A stretch of 64,000 bases of DNA, from assembly GCA_903859705.1 (NCBI GenBank), contig CAIONQ010000103.1, forward strand, positions 1 through 64,000. The letters run 5' to 3'. The translations under genes and the position numbers were made by a program. Source of the DNA: an uncultured Chthonomonas sp. GTDB taxonomy: Bacteria > Armatimonadota > Chthonomonadetes > Chthonomonadales > Chthonomonadaceae. Under the pieces are notes generated by a model. That model ran no database searches and was not told the DNA's origin. It saw only the letters and a program-made list of their open reading frames with translations. Positions within the stretch are counted from its first letter, which is position 1; each line of letters opens with the position of its first letter. Of this stretch, positions 1 to 15,864 are shown in pieces.

Positions 1-806
1 TCGACGTGGGCGAAATTGCCTGCGAAGAGATCAAAGAGGCCATCGTTGTTGAAATCTGCCCAGCAGGCACCAATTGAGTGACCGCCATCAAACCCTTCCG
101 AAGCGGCAATCACATTGCTGTACTTCGCGGTATCCAGTACCGTGCCAGCAGGTGTCATAGAGATCAGGCGGTTAGCCATCAGGCGGTAGTTAGAAACATA
201 TACTGAGGCGCGGCCAGAGACGTTGTAATCACAGGCGGTTACACCACGTGTGCGGAAATTACTATCGGTCCATGCAAGCTTAAAGCCCTTACCGGCTTCA
301 TTGAGCAGAATGTAACTGGGGTAGGTTATGTCTTTATCCCAGTCTTCGTATCCGCCGATGTACAGGTCCGGGTAGCCATCTCCGTTAAGATCTGCCCAAC
401 AGGCACCCCGTGATGCGGCGGCAGGCATGGCGGGGAGTGGAAACTCGACAAACTTCTTGCCGCCGATATTCTTGTAGAGTTTGTGTTCTGGGATGGAGTA
501 CAGGTCTATCCAGCCATCGTTATCAAAGTCTGCAGCCACAACGGAGCCACCGACCTGAGCGAGTTTTGTAAAACCTTTGCCAGCATTGTTTTTCCACACT
601 ACGCCGCCACAGATAATATCTGTCCAGCCATCGTTGTCGATATCTACGCAACACGCTTGATCGTTCACAAGCGACAGTCCGAGCTCTGCGGTACGGTCTT
701 TAAAGTGAGTTTGTGCAGCAGAGTTGGTTGTAGCGGCTACCAGTAGCAGGCCGGCAGCAATGGCAATTGCTGCACCGGCAAGGCGTTGCATAGCATGAAA
801 AAACAT
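1..806 (-). CDS. FG-GAP/VCBS repeat exported protein (C-terminus outside window)
   Basis: Partial gene running off the left edge; about 268 N-terminal residues are visible. The start ATG at 806-804 follows a GGGGAG site 8 nt upstream. A hydrophobic signal peptide spans about residues 6-33 (AIAIAAGLLLVAA core). The mature part repeats acidic calcium-loop motifs of the FG-GAP/integrin-alpha type: DIDNDGWTDI, DFDNDGWIDL, DLNGDGYPDL and DFNNDGLFDL. Such repeats fold into a beta-propeller whose loops bind Ca2+ (family knowledge), which suggests a surface or periplasmic binding protein. It lies 58 bp downstream of the calpain-like gene and reads as the third gene of that operon. The ligand is unknown. 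An ASPIC/UnbV tail, if present, would be outside the window. Confidence 0.85.
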   Translation of the reverse strand, partial: MFFHAMQRLAGAAIAIAAGLLLVAATTNSAAQTHFKDRTAELGLSLVNDQACCVDIDNDGWTDIICGGVVWKNNAGKGFTKLAQVGGSVVAADFDNDGWIDLYSIPEHKLYKNIGGKKFVEFPLPAMPAAASRGACWADLNGDGYPDLYIGGYEDWDKDITYPSYILLNEAGKGFKLAWTDSNFRTRGVTACDYNVSGRASVYVSNYRLMANRLISMTPAGTVLDTAKYSNVIAASEGFDGGHSIGACWADFNNDGLFDLFAGNFAHV

Positions 807-864
807 CGTGAATACTCCCCGGGCAGGCACGGATAGAAACGAATATGTGCTTGCCGAGAGCACT

Positions 865-2226
865 TTATGGGTGTGGGCTGGGAATACCTGCTTTCACATC
901 GGCGGCGGGCGTAACGGGAGGGGGCGGCGTGGAAGATACAGGCTGATCGGTTTCGAAAACTATCCCGGCAAGGAATGCCAGAGCATCCGTTAAGTGCAGT
1001 GAGAACTCACCCATTTCGGTATTGTATCCGGACTTCAGCCCCTCTTCACCTTTTGGGTGAAATGTGTTGCCATGCGGGTTCCAGAGAGTTATTAAGTCTT
1101 TTGTGGCATCGTAATTCAACACGGCATAGGCATGTTTTAAACTTATGCCGGGAGGTTTTAGGCCGGTTGCAGGTGTGCCAGCGCAGACAAGGCGCTTAGC
1201 TTTCATTGCTGAAACAAGCATTTCTCGCAGGTTTGCCAGGCGTGCTTCCTTCTGCTCGGTGGAAAGCACCTGTGCCTTCACAACCGGTGGCACAGGCACA
1301 GGTGGTGGAGGTGTATTTGCTGCGGCCGCAGTGTATCCGTCTGTGGGTTTGGTCGGCACGAACACGTCCGAGGCGATATGCCATGGGGCGCAGTTGAACC
1401 GCTTAATTGCATGGCCAGAGAGTATGGTGATGACTTTGCCGGCAGAGCCACCGTGGCCAATAACATCCAGGTAATTGGGGTCGTTGCTGGTGGTACCGAT
1501 CGGAACAGGCTTACCTTTCAGCGATGCGCGAGATTGGATGGTGTACATCCCGATGGCCTTTTCATACATGTTTACCCAGGTGCCATCGCCTCGCGATGTG
1601 GAGGAGAGTGCAATCTCTGCATCGGTTAATGAGTGTAGCGTTACTGGCTCGCCAGTAGCAAAATGGACTGCAACATCTCCATCTTTGGCTGGCACAAACA
1701 TTTGAACAACCTGCTGGGGATCTCGGTGAATTAATGCCCCGAGCGGAGCAAGGCAGAAACAATCTCCCAGGCGTCCCTGATGCAGCATTTCTAATCTTGG
1801 AGTGCCGGAGGCAAACAGCATGCGGTTGTAAGTGGCGATCTTTGAAAGGGAAGCTTTATACAACTGATCAAAATTCGGAGAGGCAGTGCTTCGCGGTTTC
1901 TCGACTTCGACGAGATGGGCTATGCCCGCTTTTGTGAGAACTGGGGGTGTATATGATTTGCTGTTTAGCGACCTCTTAAGTGCGGCTACGGTTGCAGCGG
2001 AAGGCCCGGCGATATGGGGATCGGCAATTAGCCTGTCGATTTCTGCCTTAGAAAGCTCGCCATTATGGTCTGCATCCCACTCTTCAAAGTGAGCGGTAAT
2101 CTGGGCGGTAAAGCTGGCATCCGAAACAGGAGCGGAGGCGGTTTGCGCAATGGCGGCAGCGGAAATACAGACTGCGAGCGCAACAATGGAAGAAACTGGC
2201 GCAGAGTAACGGGTTCGCACGGGCAT
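865..2226 (-). CDS. Exported calpain-like (C2 family) cysteine protease with EF-hand
   Basis: A 453-residue protein with a signal peptide (about 1-30, ending near AIAQTASA). A single EF-hand-like loop follows at 51-62 (DADHNGELSKAE). The protease core carries the three calpain signatures: Cys156 in QGRLGDCFCLAPLGAL, His365 in KHAYAVLNYD, and Asn383 in LWNPHGN, so the catalytic triad looks intact. A proline-rich stretch (306-315) lies between the Cys and His halves, and another is near the C-terminus. Role by family: Ca2+-dependent peptide bond cleavage; an exported position is inferred from the signal. AAGGAG sits only 2 nt before the ATG at 2226 but 8 nt before a GTG at 2220, so the real start may be the GTG. 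It lies 36 bp after a lipoprotein gene and 58 bp before an FG-GAP gene. Substrate unknown. Confidence 0.8.
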   Translation of the reverse strand: MPVRTRYSAPVSSIVALAVCISAAAIAQTASAPVSDASFTAQITAHFEEWDADHNGELSKAEIDRLIADPHIAGPSAATVAALKRSLNSKSYTPPVLTKAGIAHLVEVEKPRSTASPNFDQLYKASLSKIATYNRMLFASGTPRLEMLHQGRLGDCFCLAPLGALIHRDPQQVVQMFVPAKDGDVAVHFATGEPVTLHSLTDAEIALSSTSRGDGTWVNMYEKAIGMYTIQSRASLKGKPVPIGTTSNDPNYLDVIGHGGSAGKVITILSGHAIKRFNCAPWHIASDVFVPTKPTDGYTAAAANTPPPPVPVPPVVKAQVLSTEQKEARLANLREMLVSAMKAKRLVCAGTPATGLKPPGISLKHAYAVLNYDATKDLITLWNPHGNTFHPKGEEGLKSGYNTEMGEFSLHLTDALAFLAGIVFETDQPVSSTPPPPVTPAADVKAGIPSPHP

Positions 2227-2262
2227 ATCTCCTTTGCTTCAGGCAGACAGCAGATGAGAAAC

Positions 2263-2787
2263 CTATGGGTGTGCTGCGTTTGCAGCGGTGACAGTAAGGC
2301 GCCATGGCGCGTTGTGAGAGGAATCCTGGGCATTCCAGGTTGCTACGAAGTCTCCGAGATCGGGCAGCGGGCTAAGTTTGCCATCCGCTGCACGGTCAAT
2401 ATTGCCCTGGGGGTGTAGTCCCAGTACGCGCAGTGCCTGCAACCTCTGTTTATCTGTGAAGTCTACCATTACTGTAAGGCTCTGGAAAGTTTGACCATCG
2501 TAAGTTACCGCAAACGGATACATGTTGAGGGGCGACTCATACATGCAGGTTTGAAGGCTTACTGATTTGCCAGAGGCATATTTCGCCTTAATATCCGCCG
2601 TGGACTTTGGCAGCCCGCAGACCTTCTCGATTTGAGCGCGTGGTTTGCCCAGTAAGGTCATTAAATCTGGAGCTGATTTCTTGCATGCCGATATGAAGCC
2701 CACACTCAACCCAATACACAATGAGGCTGCGGCAAGCAAAAGCATCTGAACCCGGAAGGAAGTACGATACGAACTAAGATATTGCAT
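2263..2787 (-). CDS. Putative lipoprotein of unknown function
   Basis: A 174-residue protein whose N-terminal hydrophobic segment (about 15-34) ends in FISAC, a plausible lipobox with Cys35; KKSAPD follows. This suggests export and lipid anchoring, although the N-terminal extension before the hydrophobic core is long, and an internal ATG (Met15) would give a normal-length signal. Neither start has a clear Shine-Dalgarno site. I do not recognise the mature domain. The segment from 44 to 60 (LMTLLGKPRAQIEKVCGLP) resembles the small repeat seen in some SmpA/BamE-like or outer-membrane lipoproteins, but only loosely. It is the first gene of a three-gene minus-strand run with the calpain-like protease and the FG-GAP protein, so a role linked to that exported protease is possible but unproven. 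Confidence 0.65.
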   Translation of the reverse strand: MQYLSSYRTSFRVQMLLLAAASLCIGLSVGFISACKKSAPDLMTLLGKPRAQIEKVCGLPKSTADIKAKYASGKSVSLQTCMYESPLNMYPFAVTYDGQTFQSLTVMVDFTDKQRLQALRVLGLHPQGNIDRAADGKLSPLPDLGDFVATWNAQDSSHNAPWRLTVTAANAAHP

Positions 2788-6519: not shown

Positions 6520-8673
6520 TTAGTCGTCTTTATCTGAGATCACGGCTACGCGCTTCACTTCGTTGGTTCCGAATGCGAACCGGAAGTCGTCTGAGGCGCC
6601 TTCGAGTGTTGTGAGTACGGGAGCCCATTTCGGATCGCGCGTAAGGAACGACTGTGTGTTGTTGCCATCCGGGCGCACAGTGAGCGTAATTTCATTGCCG
6701 GTGGTTGCTTCCGGGCTGGCTACCCAGCCAAGTGGCAGGCCGGTGAGATAGACCGTTACGTTGCCGGTGAAGCCTGCCCGGCGGTTTATCTTGATCTTAA
6801 CAGGCGTGGCTTTGCGCGGGTGCACCAGGATGGGACTGCGCGCATCGACAAAGGCCATAGAGAAATCGCTCTGGCCACGTACGGCAACTGTGGCATCGCT
6901 CCAGTTTCGATACCGTGGGTCGTTATTAAGGCGATACTCTTCTTGTGGCACCGCATAGGCCTTTGTTTCGCCGAACGGCCCTTTGCCTGTGACGAATACT
7001 CGCACAGGCTTTTCAATGGGAGCGGCGCCCGCAGCAGCATTGAACTGAAGCCATGCTGTGTTTCTATCAGGCGCAAGCACAACGGGTGTTACAGTAACTC
7101 CGGCTGGCAGATCCTCTGCAGAAACCGTAACTGGACCGTCAACGCCATCGCGGCGGGTGATTATTACCATAGCTGCAGTGCTAATCCCAGGCCGAACGGT
7201 GATGTTATCGGGGCGCAACACCGCATCGAGACCTGGACCAGCGCGCCGACCTTCGATGGCATATACGCAGTTGGGGCCAACAACACCATTGGCGCTGGAG
7301 ACACGCAACTGATAGGTTTGCCCTGCTTCGAGCCGCGCAGTCATTTTGCCATCGCCGCCGAAACTTGCGATTCCGGAACCGTCTGCTTTGACTATTGCTG
7401 CCGATATGCTCATCGGAGAGCTAAGGCGGCTTGCATACCCTTCAAACTCGTAAATCCCCGTGTTTGCGGGAGAGATAGGATAGACGTCCTGAGCACCGGC
7501 TTTTGCAATCTGCCCGGTAAATGAAGCCGGCATTGAGGAGGGCTTAACCCCGGCCGCAGCCACCGTTACCGGATACTGCGTTGATAAGAATGGCACCGGT
7601 CCGAAGGCACCGGGGGCATTTACCACACCGTTGTCTGTCGGTACAGTAAAGCTGTATTTACTGTTAACGCTTTCAGATCCCTTGCCGATAACCTGAGCGC
7701 TAACCACTGCGCCGGCCTGGCCGGCTGCTGGGAATACAACATTGTCGTAGGGCACCAGGCCCATGGTGAGGCGGTAAACGCTAGATGGGTTGGGGCGGCC
7801 GAGCAAATCTCGCACTTCAAGTGTATAGCTGCCATCTGCTGGACATACCCAATCAATCAGGGGGTCCATATCGAAGTAACCATGGTTCTCAATCAGTTGT
7901 GTACCTGAAGCATCGTAGAGCCTCAGGTTTGGGCTAAAGAAGAACTGGTTAGTTTCGTTGTACCGAAATGCCTTGAGGTTGAAGATTAGCCGATCGCCCT
8001 TTTTGGCCGGGAACTTCAGATAGTGGCGCTCGCCAGAAGCCATGAAGCAACCATGGACCGTGCATGGGATCGGTACTGGCTGAGGCTGATCTTTGGGAAC
8101 AGGAGCTGCAAGCACCTCTGGGAGTGCACCCACCTCAAACCAGTAGGGCGAGGAAACTCCTCGGGGCGTTGCAACACGAATTTCATAGACACCTGGCACC
8201 GAATCCGGAGCAACGGTTACCTGTGCGGTAACACGCCCGGCTCGAGCAGAGCTTACGAGGTATTGAGTTACCTTTGTGGTTTCATCGGCAGAAAGCGGTG
8301 CACTACGGGCCTTTACCATGCGCTCCACCGTGGCTGCCCACTGGCCAGGAGTAAGGCTGCGGTTTGCTGGGGAGCGCAACTCATGGCAGCTGCCACACTT
8401 TGCCTGCCACACTGGCTTATTGGTATCGTCTGCCTTTGCCCCGCCAGGTGTAAGGGTGCCGGTGAGGCCCTTGCCATGGATAAGCAGCATGTTCGCGCCA
8501 TCCAGGCCAGAACCCCGAATTTCAATCTCAGCCGTTGTGCCAGCCTTTGCCCCAATGGGGAAGAATGTGTTAATGCGCGGAATCTGTGCGATTGCAGGCA
8601 TACATGCGGAAGCGACGGTTGCTGCAGCCACAACGGCTGTGGCTCTGGGTACAAAAGTTTTGTATGGCTTCAC
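6520..8673 (-). CDS. Exported TIG/pre-peptidase-domain protein with inserted cytochrome c motif
   Basis: A 717-residue protein with a signal peptide (1-30, ending PAIAQ). A TIG-like beta-sandwich begins at about 36 (FFPIGAKAGTTAEIEI) and resumes at about 148-185 (APDSVPGVYEIRVATPRGVS). Between them, at about 84-143, is a small cytochrome c-like insert with a heme site Cys93-x-x-Cys96-His97 and candidate ligand Met119. A bacterial pre-peptidase C-terminal-type domain follows at about 215-310, then further beta-rich domains. Planctomycete homologues known to me have the TIG and PPC parts without this insert. The GTG start at 8673 shares one base with the TAG of the WD40 gene, and AGGAGG lies 8 nt upstream, so translation is probably coupled. 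No enzymatic motif is visible; a binding or electron-transfer role outside the membrane is inferred. Confidence 0.8.
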   Translation of the reverse strand: MKPYKTFVPRATAVVAAATVASACMPAIAQIPRINTFFPIGAKAGTTAEIEIRGSGLDGANMLLIHGKGLTGTLTPGGAKADDTNKPVWQAKCGSCHELRSPANRSLTPGQWAATVERMVKARSAPLSADETTKVTQYLVSSARAGRVTAQVTVAPDSVPGVYEIRVATPRGVSSPYWFEVGALPEVLAAPVPKDQPQPVPIPCTVHGCFMASGERHYLKFPAKKGDRLIFNLKAFRYNETNQFFFSPNLRLYDASGTQLIENHGYFDMDPLIDWVCPADGSYTLEVRDLLGRPNPSSVYRLTMGLVPYDNVVFPAAGQAGAVVSAQVIGKGSESVNSKYSFTVPTDNGVVNAPGAFGPVPFLSTQYPVTVAAAGVKPSSMPASFTGQIAKAGAQDVYPISPANTGIYEFEGYASRLSSPMSISAAIVKADGSGIASFGGDGKMTARLEAGQTYQLRVSSANGVVGPNCVYAIEGRRAGPGLDAVLRPDNITVRPGISTAAMVIITRRDGVDGPVTVSAEDLPAGVTVTPVVLAPDRNTAWLQFNAAAGAAPIEKPVRVFVTGKGPFGETKAYAVPQEEYRLNNDPRYRNWSDATVAVRGQSDFSMAFVDARSPILVHPRKATPVKIKINRRAGFTGNVTVYLTGLPLGWVASPEATTGNEITLTVRPDGNNTQSFLTRDPKWAPVLTTLEGASDDFRFAFGTNEVKRVAVISDKDD

Positions 8674-9899
8674 TATCGGGTTCCTCCTGCAGTAACCGGC
8701 TTGCCAGTTGCCAGGGGCTTTGTTGCGGCTGTTTGTACAGGCTTAACCGACTTCTTAACGGGTACCGGTGCAGGTTCCGGGGCACGCTCAGGAATAATCG
8801 TGGTTACGGGCTTTCCTGTGGTGACATCCCAGACATAGATAACTCCCTGCCTGCCGGCTGCGGCGGCAAGTTTGCCATCTGGAGAGATTGCTGTGCAGTA
8901 CACAGGGCCGGTAAGATCTTTGAATTCTTTAACGAGAGACCCATTATCGATATCCCAAACACATACTCTGTGGTCACCACCGCCAGTAATGGCGCGATTT
9001 AGACCGGCAGAAACAGAGAATGCGGTAACACCATCTTCATGGGCTCTTACCGTTCTAAACGGATAACCGCCAAATATCTTCTTGCGTTCGTTGTAGGTTA
9101 CCGCCCACCAGTACAGGTTGCCATCCAGGCTCGAACCCACAATTTGATCGCCATTTGCAAGAAACGAGAGGCCGGTAACACCCGCAGTTGCCTGATCGAA
9201 GTTAACAACAACCTTGTTGGTTTTGCAATCCCAGACCTTAACGAACTTATCCATGGCACCGGTTACGTAAACGTAATCCTGCTTTGGAGAGAACGCAACA
9301 GCCGTTACGCGCCCGTTGTGCTCTTCGAGTTTAATTTCGCCGTACGGGTAGGGGGTCCATGGAAAAAGGTGAGCCTTGCTATCGAAAGAAGCGGTAAGCA
9401 TTTGCTTCGCATTTTTCGAAAAGGCGATGGTTTCTATGGTGTCTTTTGCCTGCAGGTAGTTCATGTTGTGTGTAGGATCGGTTGTATCCCACACAACTAC
9501 GTTTCCACAGGAGCCTGCAATGCCGCTGCCCACTGCAATGTGCGTGTTATCTGGCAGGAAAGTTACTGCCCTTACCGCGTTTTGGATTGCAGAACCACGC
9601 AGGGTGGATTGAACCGCCCAGGCGGTGGTATCGAATACAAGCGCCTGCCGATGCGAGCCCACAGCCAACTTCTTACCATCCGGGCTAAACGCCAGGGCAT
9701 AGATGGGAGCTGGCATTTCAGTATGCTGGGCAGCTACAGGGGCTGGAAGATTAGGAGCAGGGGACGGAGTGGAAACGGGATTGCCAGCCGGGGGCACTCC
9801 GGCAATTGCAGGAGATGCGGCGATCAGCACGCTGCCAAGCAGCGCTGCGGCACCAAGGAGAAAAGAAAACCGTGATTCGACCACGAACGGAGCCCTCAT
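8673..9899 (-). CDS. Exported WD40-repeat protein
   Basis: About 408 residues from the ATG at 9899; an in-frame GTG at 9938 would start inside a hairpin and is disfavoured. A signal peptide (FLLGAAALLGSVLIAASPAIAG) is followed by roughly seven WD40 repeats, seen as FSPDGKKLAVGS, VVVWD, VAFSPKQDYVYVTGAMD, VKVWD, VCVWD, ISPDGKLAAAAG and IYVWD, forming a predicted beta-propeller. A Pro/Lys/Thr-rich low-complexity tail covers about the last 45 residues. WD40 propellers act as protein-interaction scaffolds, so this may bridge the other exported products of its operon. It lies between the DUF1501 gene (79 bp upstream, with a hairpin in the gap) and the TIG/PPC gene (1-base overlap). Exported WD40 proteins in such clusters are known in planctomycetes; the ligand is unknown. 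Confidence 0.85.
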   Translation of the reverse strand: MRAPFVVESRFSFLLGAAALLGSVLIAASPAIAGVPPAGNPVSTPSPAPNLPAPVAAQHTEMPAPIYALAFSPDGKKLAVGSHRQALVFDTTAWAVQSTLRGSAIQNAVRAVTFLPDNTHIAVGSGIAGSCGNVVVWDTTDPTHNMNYLQAKDTIETIAFSKNAKQMLTASFDSKAHLFPWTPYPYGEIKLEEHNGRVTAVAFSPKQDYVYVTGAMDKFVKVWDCKTNKVVVNFDQATAGVTGLSFLANGDQIVGSSLDGNLYWWAVTYNERKKIFGGYPFRTVRAHEDGVTAFSVSAGLNRAITGGGDHRVCVWDIDNGSLVKEFKDLTGPVYCTAISPDGKLAAAAGRQGVIYVWDVTTGKPVTTIIPERAPEPAPVPVKKSVKPVQTAATKPLATGKPVTAGGTR

Positions 9900-9911
9900 A
9901 AAACGCAATGC

Positions 9912-9940
9912 TGGTGCGGCTCCGGTTTGAAGCCGCACCA
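9912..9940 (-). terminator. Intercistronic hairpin between DUF1501 and WD40 genes
   Basis: A perfect 10-bp stem, TGGTGCGGCT with AGCCGCACCA, encloses a 9-nt loop in the 79-bp gap before the WD40 ATG. On minus it is followed 8 nt later by TTTT. It may be an attenuator, a partial terminator or an RNA-stability element that sets the expression ratio within the operon. Confidence 0.5.
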
Positions 9941-13873: not shown

Positions 13874-14119
13874 TCACTTTCCGCCAGGAGCGGTCATGCC
13901 TCCGCTACCGCCCGGAGCTGTAGGGTTAACATCGTTACCCGACTTGCCGGGCAGCTGCATCTGTTGGGGGCCAGCTTTTAGATCGACCTTCATGGGAATG
14001 GGGGGTGCATCACCGCCGGCATACGGATGGTTGGCCTTGTTCCACATAAAATATCCGGCAACTCCTACTACGAGTGCGACAACCACGACCACAACTGGTG
14101 TGCTTACCTGTTGTTTCAT
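13874..14119 (-). CDS. Small single-pass membrane protein
   Basis: An 81-residue protein: a short polar head, one transmembrane helix at about 8-25 (TPVVVVVVALVVGVAGYFMW), then a Pro/Gly/Lys-rich tail (APPIPMKVDLKAG, then repeated GGSGG and APGG units) with no predicted fold. The membrane span plus extended Gly/Pro tail suggests an inner-membrane anchor with an unstructured periplasmic tail. Its ATG overlaps the stop of the CRTAC1-like gene by 4 bases (ATGA), the classic sign of translational coupling, so it is very likely real and functionally tied to the CRTAC1-like and TPR proteins. I do not recognise the family. Confidence 0.75.
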   Translation of the reverse strand: MKQQVSTPVVVVVVALVVGVAGYFMWNKANHPYAGGDAPPIPMKVDLKAGPQQMQLPGKSGNDVNPTAPGGSGGMTAPGGK

Positions 14120-15864
14120 TTAGCGATGCCTCCTTTGTTACTGGTTGATCCTTCAACCAGCCGATGAATTCGATTTGTTTCCAGACGTTTCCAAACTTCT
14201 TCGGCTCCTGGTATTCCACCGGAGCCCGGCCAACGAACTCTCACTTCCAGGATTGTGGTATCGGTACCAAGTCCAAAGTGGACACGTAGATCGGATTGCG
14301 ACAAGTAAGAGCTGCCGCTATAGACCTCCTGCGTTTGCATCCCTGACCGTGTCTTAACCTGAACCCTTGCTCCAATGGCACTCCTATTGGCTTTCACACC
14401 CTGTAACTGAAGCTTGATCCAATTGTGCTGAAAGCTCGATTCGTTATGAATAAGTCTCACCGGACCTTTGTTATTGCTTACGAGGATATCCAGGCGGCCA
14501 TCATTATCGTAATCTCCAACCGCAAGCCCTCGCCCAACATATTTCTGCTGGAACGCAGGACCAGCGGTTGTAGAGACATCTTCAAACGATTTGCCACCAT
14601 GGTTATGGTAAAGCTGAAGTGGCTGGGCGTATTCCAGAGCCTGATTGTTTTCGTGGCAATCATCCAGAACGTGCCCGTTGGCAACCACAATGTCTTGCCA
14701 GCCATCGTTATCAAAATCGGCAAAGTGAGCTCCGAAGCCAAGGGGTACAAGGCTGGGAGGGCCAATACCTGTTCTGAGCGATTCGTAGGTAAAGTTCGCC
14801 TGGCCGGTGTTGCGATACAGTGAGTTCATTTCAAAGGAGTAGTTGGTAACGAATAGGTCGATGTTGCCATCGTTATCATAATCGCCTGCGCTAACCCCCA
14901 TGCCTGCATGGGCTGCACCATCCATGCCGTAGGCAACCCCGTATTCCACCCCACGCTCTGCAAAGGTGCCATCCCGATTGTTAATCAGTAAAAGGTTAGG
15001 CTCCAGATCGCAGGTGACGTAGAGATCCATCCATCCATCGTTATCCACATCTGTTGCGACAACTCCAAGCGACTTGCTCCGCGTTTGGATGATTCGGCTC
15101 GGGCGGGATACCTCCGTGAAGGTTCCATCCCGGTTGTTGTGGTAGAGCGTGTCTGCATGTGAGTGGTAGACCTCTGGTCCACAGTAGCTCTTATGATCTT
15201 TGCCTTTGCCGCAAAACCTGTCCTCAGAGAGTTTGTAATCCACGTAGTTGCAAACATAGAGATCGAGCCATCCATCATTATCATAATCGAAGAAGCATGC
15301 GCTTGTACTGATGCATTCGAGCCCAGCAACCCCGGCATGGATTGCGATGTCTTCAAAAACGCCATTGCCTTTATTCTTATACAGGTGATTCTTGCCAAAA
15401 CAGGTTACATATATTTCAAGGTAACCATCGTTATCGTAATCCGCTGCGCAAACGCCTCCACCGAAGCGAGTACTGCCCAGTCCGCACTTGTCTGTGACAT
15501 TTTCAAACGTACCATCTCCACGGTTCCGAAACATTTCGTGCCGAGGATGCCCCTTAACCTGGGAGCCGGGCAATAGGGCGCCGTTAACAGCGTATATGTC
15601 CAGAAATCCATCGTTATCGAAATCTATAAAGCCGCAGCCAGAGCAAAATTGCTCTACGAAGTATTTTCGGCCACTTTCCCCATCGGTATGTTTAAAGTGG
15701 ACCCCCGCTGTATCCTGAACATCTCGAAACAGAAACCCAGATGATTGTGCGACTACAGGTGCGTTGCCATGCGCAGGGCTTTTCGATCCGCATGCAGAAA
15801 GCAGGGAGCCTGCTGCAGTGACAGATGCCGACTTTATGAGCTGCCTGCGTGTGAGTGAGCTCAC
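14116..15864 (-). CDS. CRTAC1-like FG-GAP/ASPIC-UnbV Tat lipoprotein
   Basis: A 582-residue protein. The N-terminus has a twin-arginine motif (TRRQLIK at 5-11) and a lipobox-like LLSAC with Cys25, so it is a candidate Tat-exported lipoprotein. The mature part has about seven FG-GAP loops (FDNDGFLDIY, YDNDGYLEIY, YDNDGWLDLY, VDNDGWMDLY, YDNDGNIDLF, FDNDGWQDIV, YDNDGRLDIL), predicted to form a Ca2+-binding propeller. It ends in an ASPIC/UnbV domain (GARVQVKTRSGMQTQEVYSG ... VRVRWPGSG). This is the architecture of CRTAC1, known in bacteria as a surface protein of unclear ligand. It lies 3 bp after the TPR gene and overlaps the small membrane protein gene by 4 bases. Confidence 0.92.
   Translation of the reverse strand: MSSLTRRQLIKSASVTAAGSLLSACGSKSPAHGNAPVVAQSSGFLFRDVQDTAGVHFKHTDGESGRKYFVEQFCSGCGFIDFDNDGFLDIYAVNGALLPGSQVKGHPRHEMFRNRGDGTFENVTDKCGLGSTRFGGGVCAADYDNDGYLEIYVTCFGKNHLYKNKGNGVFEDIAIHAGVAGLECISTSACFFDYDNDGWLDLYVCNYVDYKLSEDRFCGKGKDHKSYCGPEVYHSHADTLYHNNRDGTFTEVSRPSRIIQTRSKSLGVVATDVDNDGWMDLYVTCDLEPNLLLINNRDGTFAERGVEYGVAYGMDGAAHAGMGVSAGDYDNDGNIDLFVTNYSFEMNSLYRNTGQANFTYESLRTGIGPPSLVPLGFGAHFADFDNDGWQDIVVANGHVLDDCHENNQALEYAQPLQLYHNHGGKSFEDVSTTAGPAFQQKYVGRGLAVGDYDNDGRLDILVSNNKGPVRLIHNESSFQHNWIKLQLQGVKANRSAIGARVQVKTRSGMQTQEVYSGSSYLSQSDLRVHFGLGTDTTILEVRVRWPGSGGIPGAEEVWKRLETNRIHRLVEGSTSNKGGIAK

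Follow-up and report, generated by a model that had tools for sequence, protein, structure and literature searches.

The window analysed here, a stretch of 64,000 nucleotides from an uncultured Chthonomonas sp., begins with three adjacent ORFs on the minus strand, separated by gaps of 36 and 58 bp. The coordinates agreed with this arrangement, as the initial annotation had described it. The features of the three genes are the following.

2263..2787, minus strand: predicted lipoprotein, 174 aa, with lipobox FISA-C at residue 35 (by inspection)
865..2226, minus strand: predicted exported EF-hand calpain-type cysteine protease P0001, 453 aa (ORF, Pfam and family alignment)
2131..2226, minus strand: signal peptide-like region of the protease, about residues 1–32, hydrophobic core IVALAVCISA (hydrophobicity and inspection)
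1903..2112, minus strand: EF-hand-pair domain, residues 39–108, first hand canonical and second degenerate (AlphaFold2 helices)
2041..2076, minus strand: canonical EF-hand loop DADHNGELSKAE, residues 51–62 (ligand positions 1, 3, 5 and 12 conserved in 25/25)
940..1872, minus strand: calpain (C2) catalytic core, residues 119–429 (Pfam; Foldseek)
1777..1779, minus strand: oxyanion-hole Gln150 (25/26 in the family alignment)
1759..1761, minus strand: catalytic Cys156 (26/26)
1132..1134, minus strand: catalytic His365 (26/26)
1078..1080, minus strand: catalytic Asn383 (25/26)
3..806, minus strand: FG-GAP repeat protein, 5′ 268 codons only, gene truncated by the contig end

The lipoprotein call was upheld by the lipobox. 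This protein had no match in Pfam, NCBIfam or the PDB; its stretch LGKPRAQIEKVCGLP presumably resembles BamE/SmpA-type lipoproteins. The third gene had been described as encoding an FG-GAP protein with DxDxDG-like loops. Both the repeats (Pfam, E 5e-19) and the loops (four of the form D-x-[DN]-x-[DN]-G) are present, but the gene is incomplete, since window position 1 is the first base of the contig. As this gene is cut at the contig edge, the grouping of the three genes is partly an assembly-edge effect. At the start of the protease gene (2220–2240, minus strand), a strong ribosome-binding site, AAAGGAG, precedes the annotated ATG by only 2 nt and a GTG two codons on by 8 nt, and from this spacing the true start may be the GTG at 2220.

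We observed the following for the catalytic core of the protease. Its score against Peptidase_C2 (PF00648, MEROPS C2) was 29.7 bits, above the cut-off of 23.8, and all the members of a 23-member family alignment (Planctomycetota, Verrucomicrobiota, Armatimonadota and Sericytochromatia), gathered with a single catalytic-site pattern, matched the calpain family model. A six-frame search of its own genome with the Pfam model missed the protease, which indicates a divergent member of the calpain family. The catalytic Cys, His and Asn and the oxyanion Gln occur in calpain order, in the motifs QGRLGDCF, KHAYAV and LWNPHG, and the intact Cys/His/Asn set noticed initially is conserved in the family at large. 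The AlphaFold2 model, made with a 23-sequence alignment (mean pLDDT 84, pTM 0.80), placed a calpain core after the N-terminal helices. Calpain protease cores were the sole high-significance Foldseek matches of this model, calpain-1, -3 and -9 being the best (E 2.6e-10, probability 1.00 and TM 0.52 by target length for the calpain-1 core); the large rmsd to the calpain-1 core indicates that the lobes differ. In a profile search of the PDB, the core matched calpain-2, calpain-8 and others, while the N-terminal domain separately matched EF-hand proteins.

The loop in this N-terminal domain, D51-A-D-H-N-G-E-L-S-K-A-E62, is canonical. The Pfam EF-hand score of the window protease was below the cut-off (12.5 bits against 25), and the EF-hand is therefore established by its conservation in the relatives. 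All the members with an intact N-terminus carry D at position 1, D or N at position 3, D, N or S at position 5 and E at position 12. Column by column, positions 1, 3, 5, 8, 9 and 12 keep the expected letters and the non-ligand positions vary freely. The strict loop pattern was found in 22 of the 23 family N-termini (the exception is a fragment) as against 0.11% of the shuffled N-termini. Seven held-out members from later phylum scans all have the loop, one of them with Asp at position 12, and in a six-member phylum alignment its ligands were conserved as well as the active site. The EF-hand proposed at the outset is thus borne out.

The AlphaFold2 helices (39–50, 60–67, 74–88 and 99–108; pLDDT mostly >90) are arranged like an EF-hand pair. 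A model of the isolated domain has the same four helices, with inter-loop bridge positions in both loops, and the top matches of this domain in a fold search against the PDB were mostly EF-hand proteins, at non-significant values (best E 0.35). The ligands of the second hand are lost. The domain has the build of an EF-hand, in that a loop of the form D-x-[DN]-x-[DN]-G-x-[ILV]-x-x-x-E is flanked by helices on both sides and has a degenerate hand as its partner. Identification of the protease as XopAW (NCBIfam, E 0.064) was dropped, because the match spans the EF-hand region only.

Signal peptides across the family were judged from hydrophobicity and by eye. A hydrophobic leader stands ahead of the EF loop in 24 of the 25 members, the exception being a Sericytochromatia member. 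The leader-like N-terminus, the EF ligands and the catalytic residues together support the earlier description of the protein as a probably exported calpain-type protease with an EF-hand. Two relatives are C-terminally fused to further domains. In a verrucomicrobial locus (L034:701-3535) the EF-hand calpain continues in frame into a BNR sialidase-like domain (BNR_2, E 6.5e-21), and in an Opitutae locus (L026:5622-7478) it is joined to an alpha/beta hydrolase (Peptidase_S9/DLH). These fusions fit an exported, degradative role of the EF-hand calpains and suggest that they break down (glyco)protein in the environment or on surfaces.

We then considered how widely such proteins occur. When the genome_contigs collection (84,980 species) was searched with a single alignment-based pattern covering the His motif, 22 loci were obtained, assigned by their titles to Planctomycetota, Verrucomicrobiota, Armatimonadota and Candidatus Sericytochromatia; a single-protein scan of the same collection gave no match. 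One homologue belongs to the named strain Zavarzinella formosa DSM 19928. Among 151 relatives searched, homologues of the protease were found in four other genomes, none of its own family or genus. The frequency in the sampled genomes was low: 8/291 in Armatimonadota (window genome included), ∼6/343 in Planctomycetota and ∼4/338 in Verrucomicrobiota. In Cyanobacteriota, 6/244 sampled genomes, which we judged to be of Sericytochromatia type on the basis of one named record (L042) and the tree, have calpains with N-terminal EF loops. Other planctomycetal calpains matched in the same phylum scans had no EF loop; most of the ordinary cyanobacterial calpains that were checked also lacked it, and a few had one or two EF-like loops elsewhere. 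The EF-hand calpain gene is single in 11 of the 12 genomes checked. A second match in one genome (G139) was rejected as a family member, as it contains stop codons and reads as an unrelated ORF region. The Sericytochromatia-type calpains L100–L104 and L042 lack an obvious signal peptide; the ones that were read carry two or three EF-hand loops at the N-terminus. By inspection, the next gene of L042, on the other strand, also has EF-hand-like loops.

A tree was made from the catalytic domain alone, leaving out the EF columns. In this tree 29 exported EF-hand calpains form one clade (100/99), and the Sericytochromatia-type proteins are its sister (100/97). The Armatimonadota members appear in several places, which requires three or more changes on branches with good support, and these scattered positions make gene transfer between the phyla likely. 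The sequences closest to the window protease come from Planctomycetota and Verrucomicrobiota. As judged from the sequences, it is a member of a strongly supported, phylogenetically scattered clade of bacterial EF-hand calpains.

The published surveys describe bacterial calpains as devoid of EF-hands and mostly not calcium dependent, and EF-hand control as eukaryotic. Rawlings (2015; PMC4631099) listed 66–67 bacterial homologues, three with a signal peptide and none with an EF-hand; Verrucomicrobia and Armatimonadetes are absent from the phylum list, and Planctomyces has one homologue. Those calpains, P. gingivalis Tpr included, resemble the window clade in their C2 Cys/His/Asn residues, their patchy distribution and the predicted secretion of some of them, whereas the EF-hand and the signal peptide-like leader, which define the window clade, occur there in none and in 3/66, respectively. 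According to a cyanobacterial study of 2022 (PMC9380684), the catalytic domain is all that bacterial calpains have in common with the others. The cyanobacterial calpains have a like core, but most of those checked are without the EF loop, unlike their Sericytochromatia-type relatives. We found no description of bacterial EF-hand calpains in the open-access literature that was searched, a search that did not cover subscription papers and database annotations. On sequence grounds, the clade contradicts the surveys in which no such proteins are reported.

The classical eukaryotic calpains (CAPN1/2/3/8/9) gave the best core matches, and several of them also carry EF-hands in the same polypeptide. 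The build is nevertheless different. Classical calpains are cytosolic, with a C-terminal penta-EF-hand used for dimerisation, a C2-like domain in between and two Ca2+ sites in the core. The window protease has an N-terminal EF pair with one working loop and an export leader, and lacks the C2-like domain and the core Ca2+ sites; its core ends ∼25 residues before the C-terminus, and no penta-EF-hand follows it. Site 1 of the animal calpain core is made by Ile89, Gly91, Asp96 and Glu175, and site 2 by Glu292, Asp299, Gln319 and Glu323 (PMC4631099). In the EF-hand calpain family, the equivalent of Glu175 is an invariant Gly (23/23) and that of Asp96 is variable; the loop of site 2 after the Asn-Pro is shortened and its acidic ligands are absent. 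As both the eukaryotic-type core sites are missing, any effect of calcium must go through the N-terminal EF-hand.

These observations led us to propose, with a probability of roughly 55%, that the protein is a solitary Sec-exported C2 endopeptidase in which external Ca2+, bound through the N-terminal EF-hand, is needed for folding, stability or activity. The protease would be exported by Sec as a calpain-type cysteine endopeptidase of family C2 and would act alone. After its exit from the low-calcium cytoplasm, the one working loop of the EF-hand pair would bind one Ca2+, and the EF domain so ordered would pack on the catalytic core. The enzyme would thereby rely on external calcium to fold, to stay stable or to be active, the EF-hand taking the place of the lost eukaryotic-type core sites. 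From the features described above we infer the Ca2+ binding, its effect on activity, the location of the enzyme (periplasm, surface or medium) and its substrates, which are probably environmental or surface proteins.

Another possibility, which we consider somewhat doubtful, is that the EF-hand serves permanently for structure or binding, takes up Ca2+ once on export and leaves the enzyme constitutively active; N-terminal EF-hands may be a generic add-on of exported enzymes in these phyla. Outside the cell, Ca2+ is frequently abundant and constant, in which case the EF-hand could be loaded all the time and lend stability instead of acting as a switch. The presence of ligands in one of the two hands only, unlike in typical cooperative sensor pairs, points in the same direction. 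A verrucomicrobial protein that is not a calpain (L098), matched through the EF-hand domain only, has a signal peptide-like stretch and an N-terminal EF-hand followed by an unrelated esterase-like domain, which suggests that exported enzymes of different kinds make use of such EF-hand leaders, and fusions of EF-hands to sulfatases and other domains are known in verrucomicrobiae (PMC7016017). However, the EF domain is kept across the clade of ∼29 proteins in spite of being only 22–41% identical to that of the window protease. Its Ala-rich helix (A77/A78/A81) is conserved to the same degree as the catalytic motifs, suggesting a specific interface, and the core has no Ca2+ sites of its own.

Under the calcium-dependent reading that we prefer, a wider proposal may be advanced, and only tentatively. 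There may be a bacterial line of calcium-switched calpains, comprising the exported EF-hand proteins of Planctomycetota, Verrucomicrobiota and Armatimonadota and the leaderless multi-EF-hand proteins of the non-photosynthetic Cyanobacteriota, in which EF-hand control arose independently of, or prior to, that of the eukaryotes, with the EF-hand at the other terminus of the polypeptide. With this clade it can be tested directly whether calpains acquired EF-hand control more than once. Being small, single-chain and exported, these proteins should also lend themselves to study much more readily than the animal calpains, which are heterodimers.

That the protein has the calpain fold but is not a working endopeptidase (but serves, for instance, in acyl transfer or in binding) appears improbable: calpain-like non-peptidases do exist in eukaryotes, one homologue (L031) has Asp in place of the catalytic Asn and another (L018) is without the usual Gln, but dead homologues normally lose these residues, and here they are retained almost throughout the family.

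The initial annotation had combined the three genes into a calcium-gated surface proteolysis unit. In favour of such an operon are the common strand, the short gaps, the export signals on all three products and the calcium loops in two of them, but it is very unlikely, as neither partner has a homologue in the ∼365 kb around the other family members, the partners lie apart in a congener, and a weak terminator-like hairpin, not above chance in the promoter/terminator scan, stands between the protease and FG-GAP genes. The searches were as follows. Using tblastn, the lipoprotein and the FG-GAP protein gave nothing below E 0.3 in that ∼365 kb around related proteases. An all-against-all comparison of the neighbours gave no recurring partner other than those shared by two near-identical contigs. 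Homologues of the three genes were not neighbours in the other genomes compared, the trio being found only here. Non-adjacent homologues had been named beforehand as the outcome that would speak against the unit, and they are what was observed. Gaps of this size are, by themselves, weak evidence of co-transcription. The trio was accordingly rejected as a conserved operon, and the lipoprotein and FG-GAP genes are most likely incidental neighbours of the protease.

Only one further genome of the genus was searched, that of the congener, and it gave no homologue of the protease. It has a full-length FG-GAP orthologue (68% identical) with FG-GAP_3 repeats and a C-terminal UnbV_ASPIC domain; this gene adjoins a divergent gene of 1139 codons that lies on the opposite strand, with neither of the trio partners beside it. 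The weak lipoprotein homologue of the congener (28–29% identical) is on another contig than the FG-GAP orthologue, and two further marginal homologues of the lipoprotein were found elsewhere. Through its orthologue, the FG-GAP gene can be placed as an ordinary member of the FG-GAP/UnbV_ASPIC proteins, with no link to a protease elsewhere. Several further FG-GAP matches occur in the window genome, which indicates that the calcium loops of the FG-GAP protein are generic. The window itself encodes a second, complete FG-GAP_3 and UnbV_ASPIC protein of 582 aa (14116–15864, minus strand). By inspection, it also encodes an exported protein of 717 aa in which the c-type haem motif CGSCH occurs (6520–8673, minus strand); its gene adjoins that of a WD40-type protein (8673–9938).
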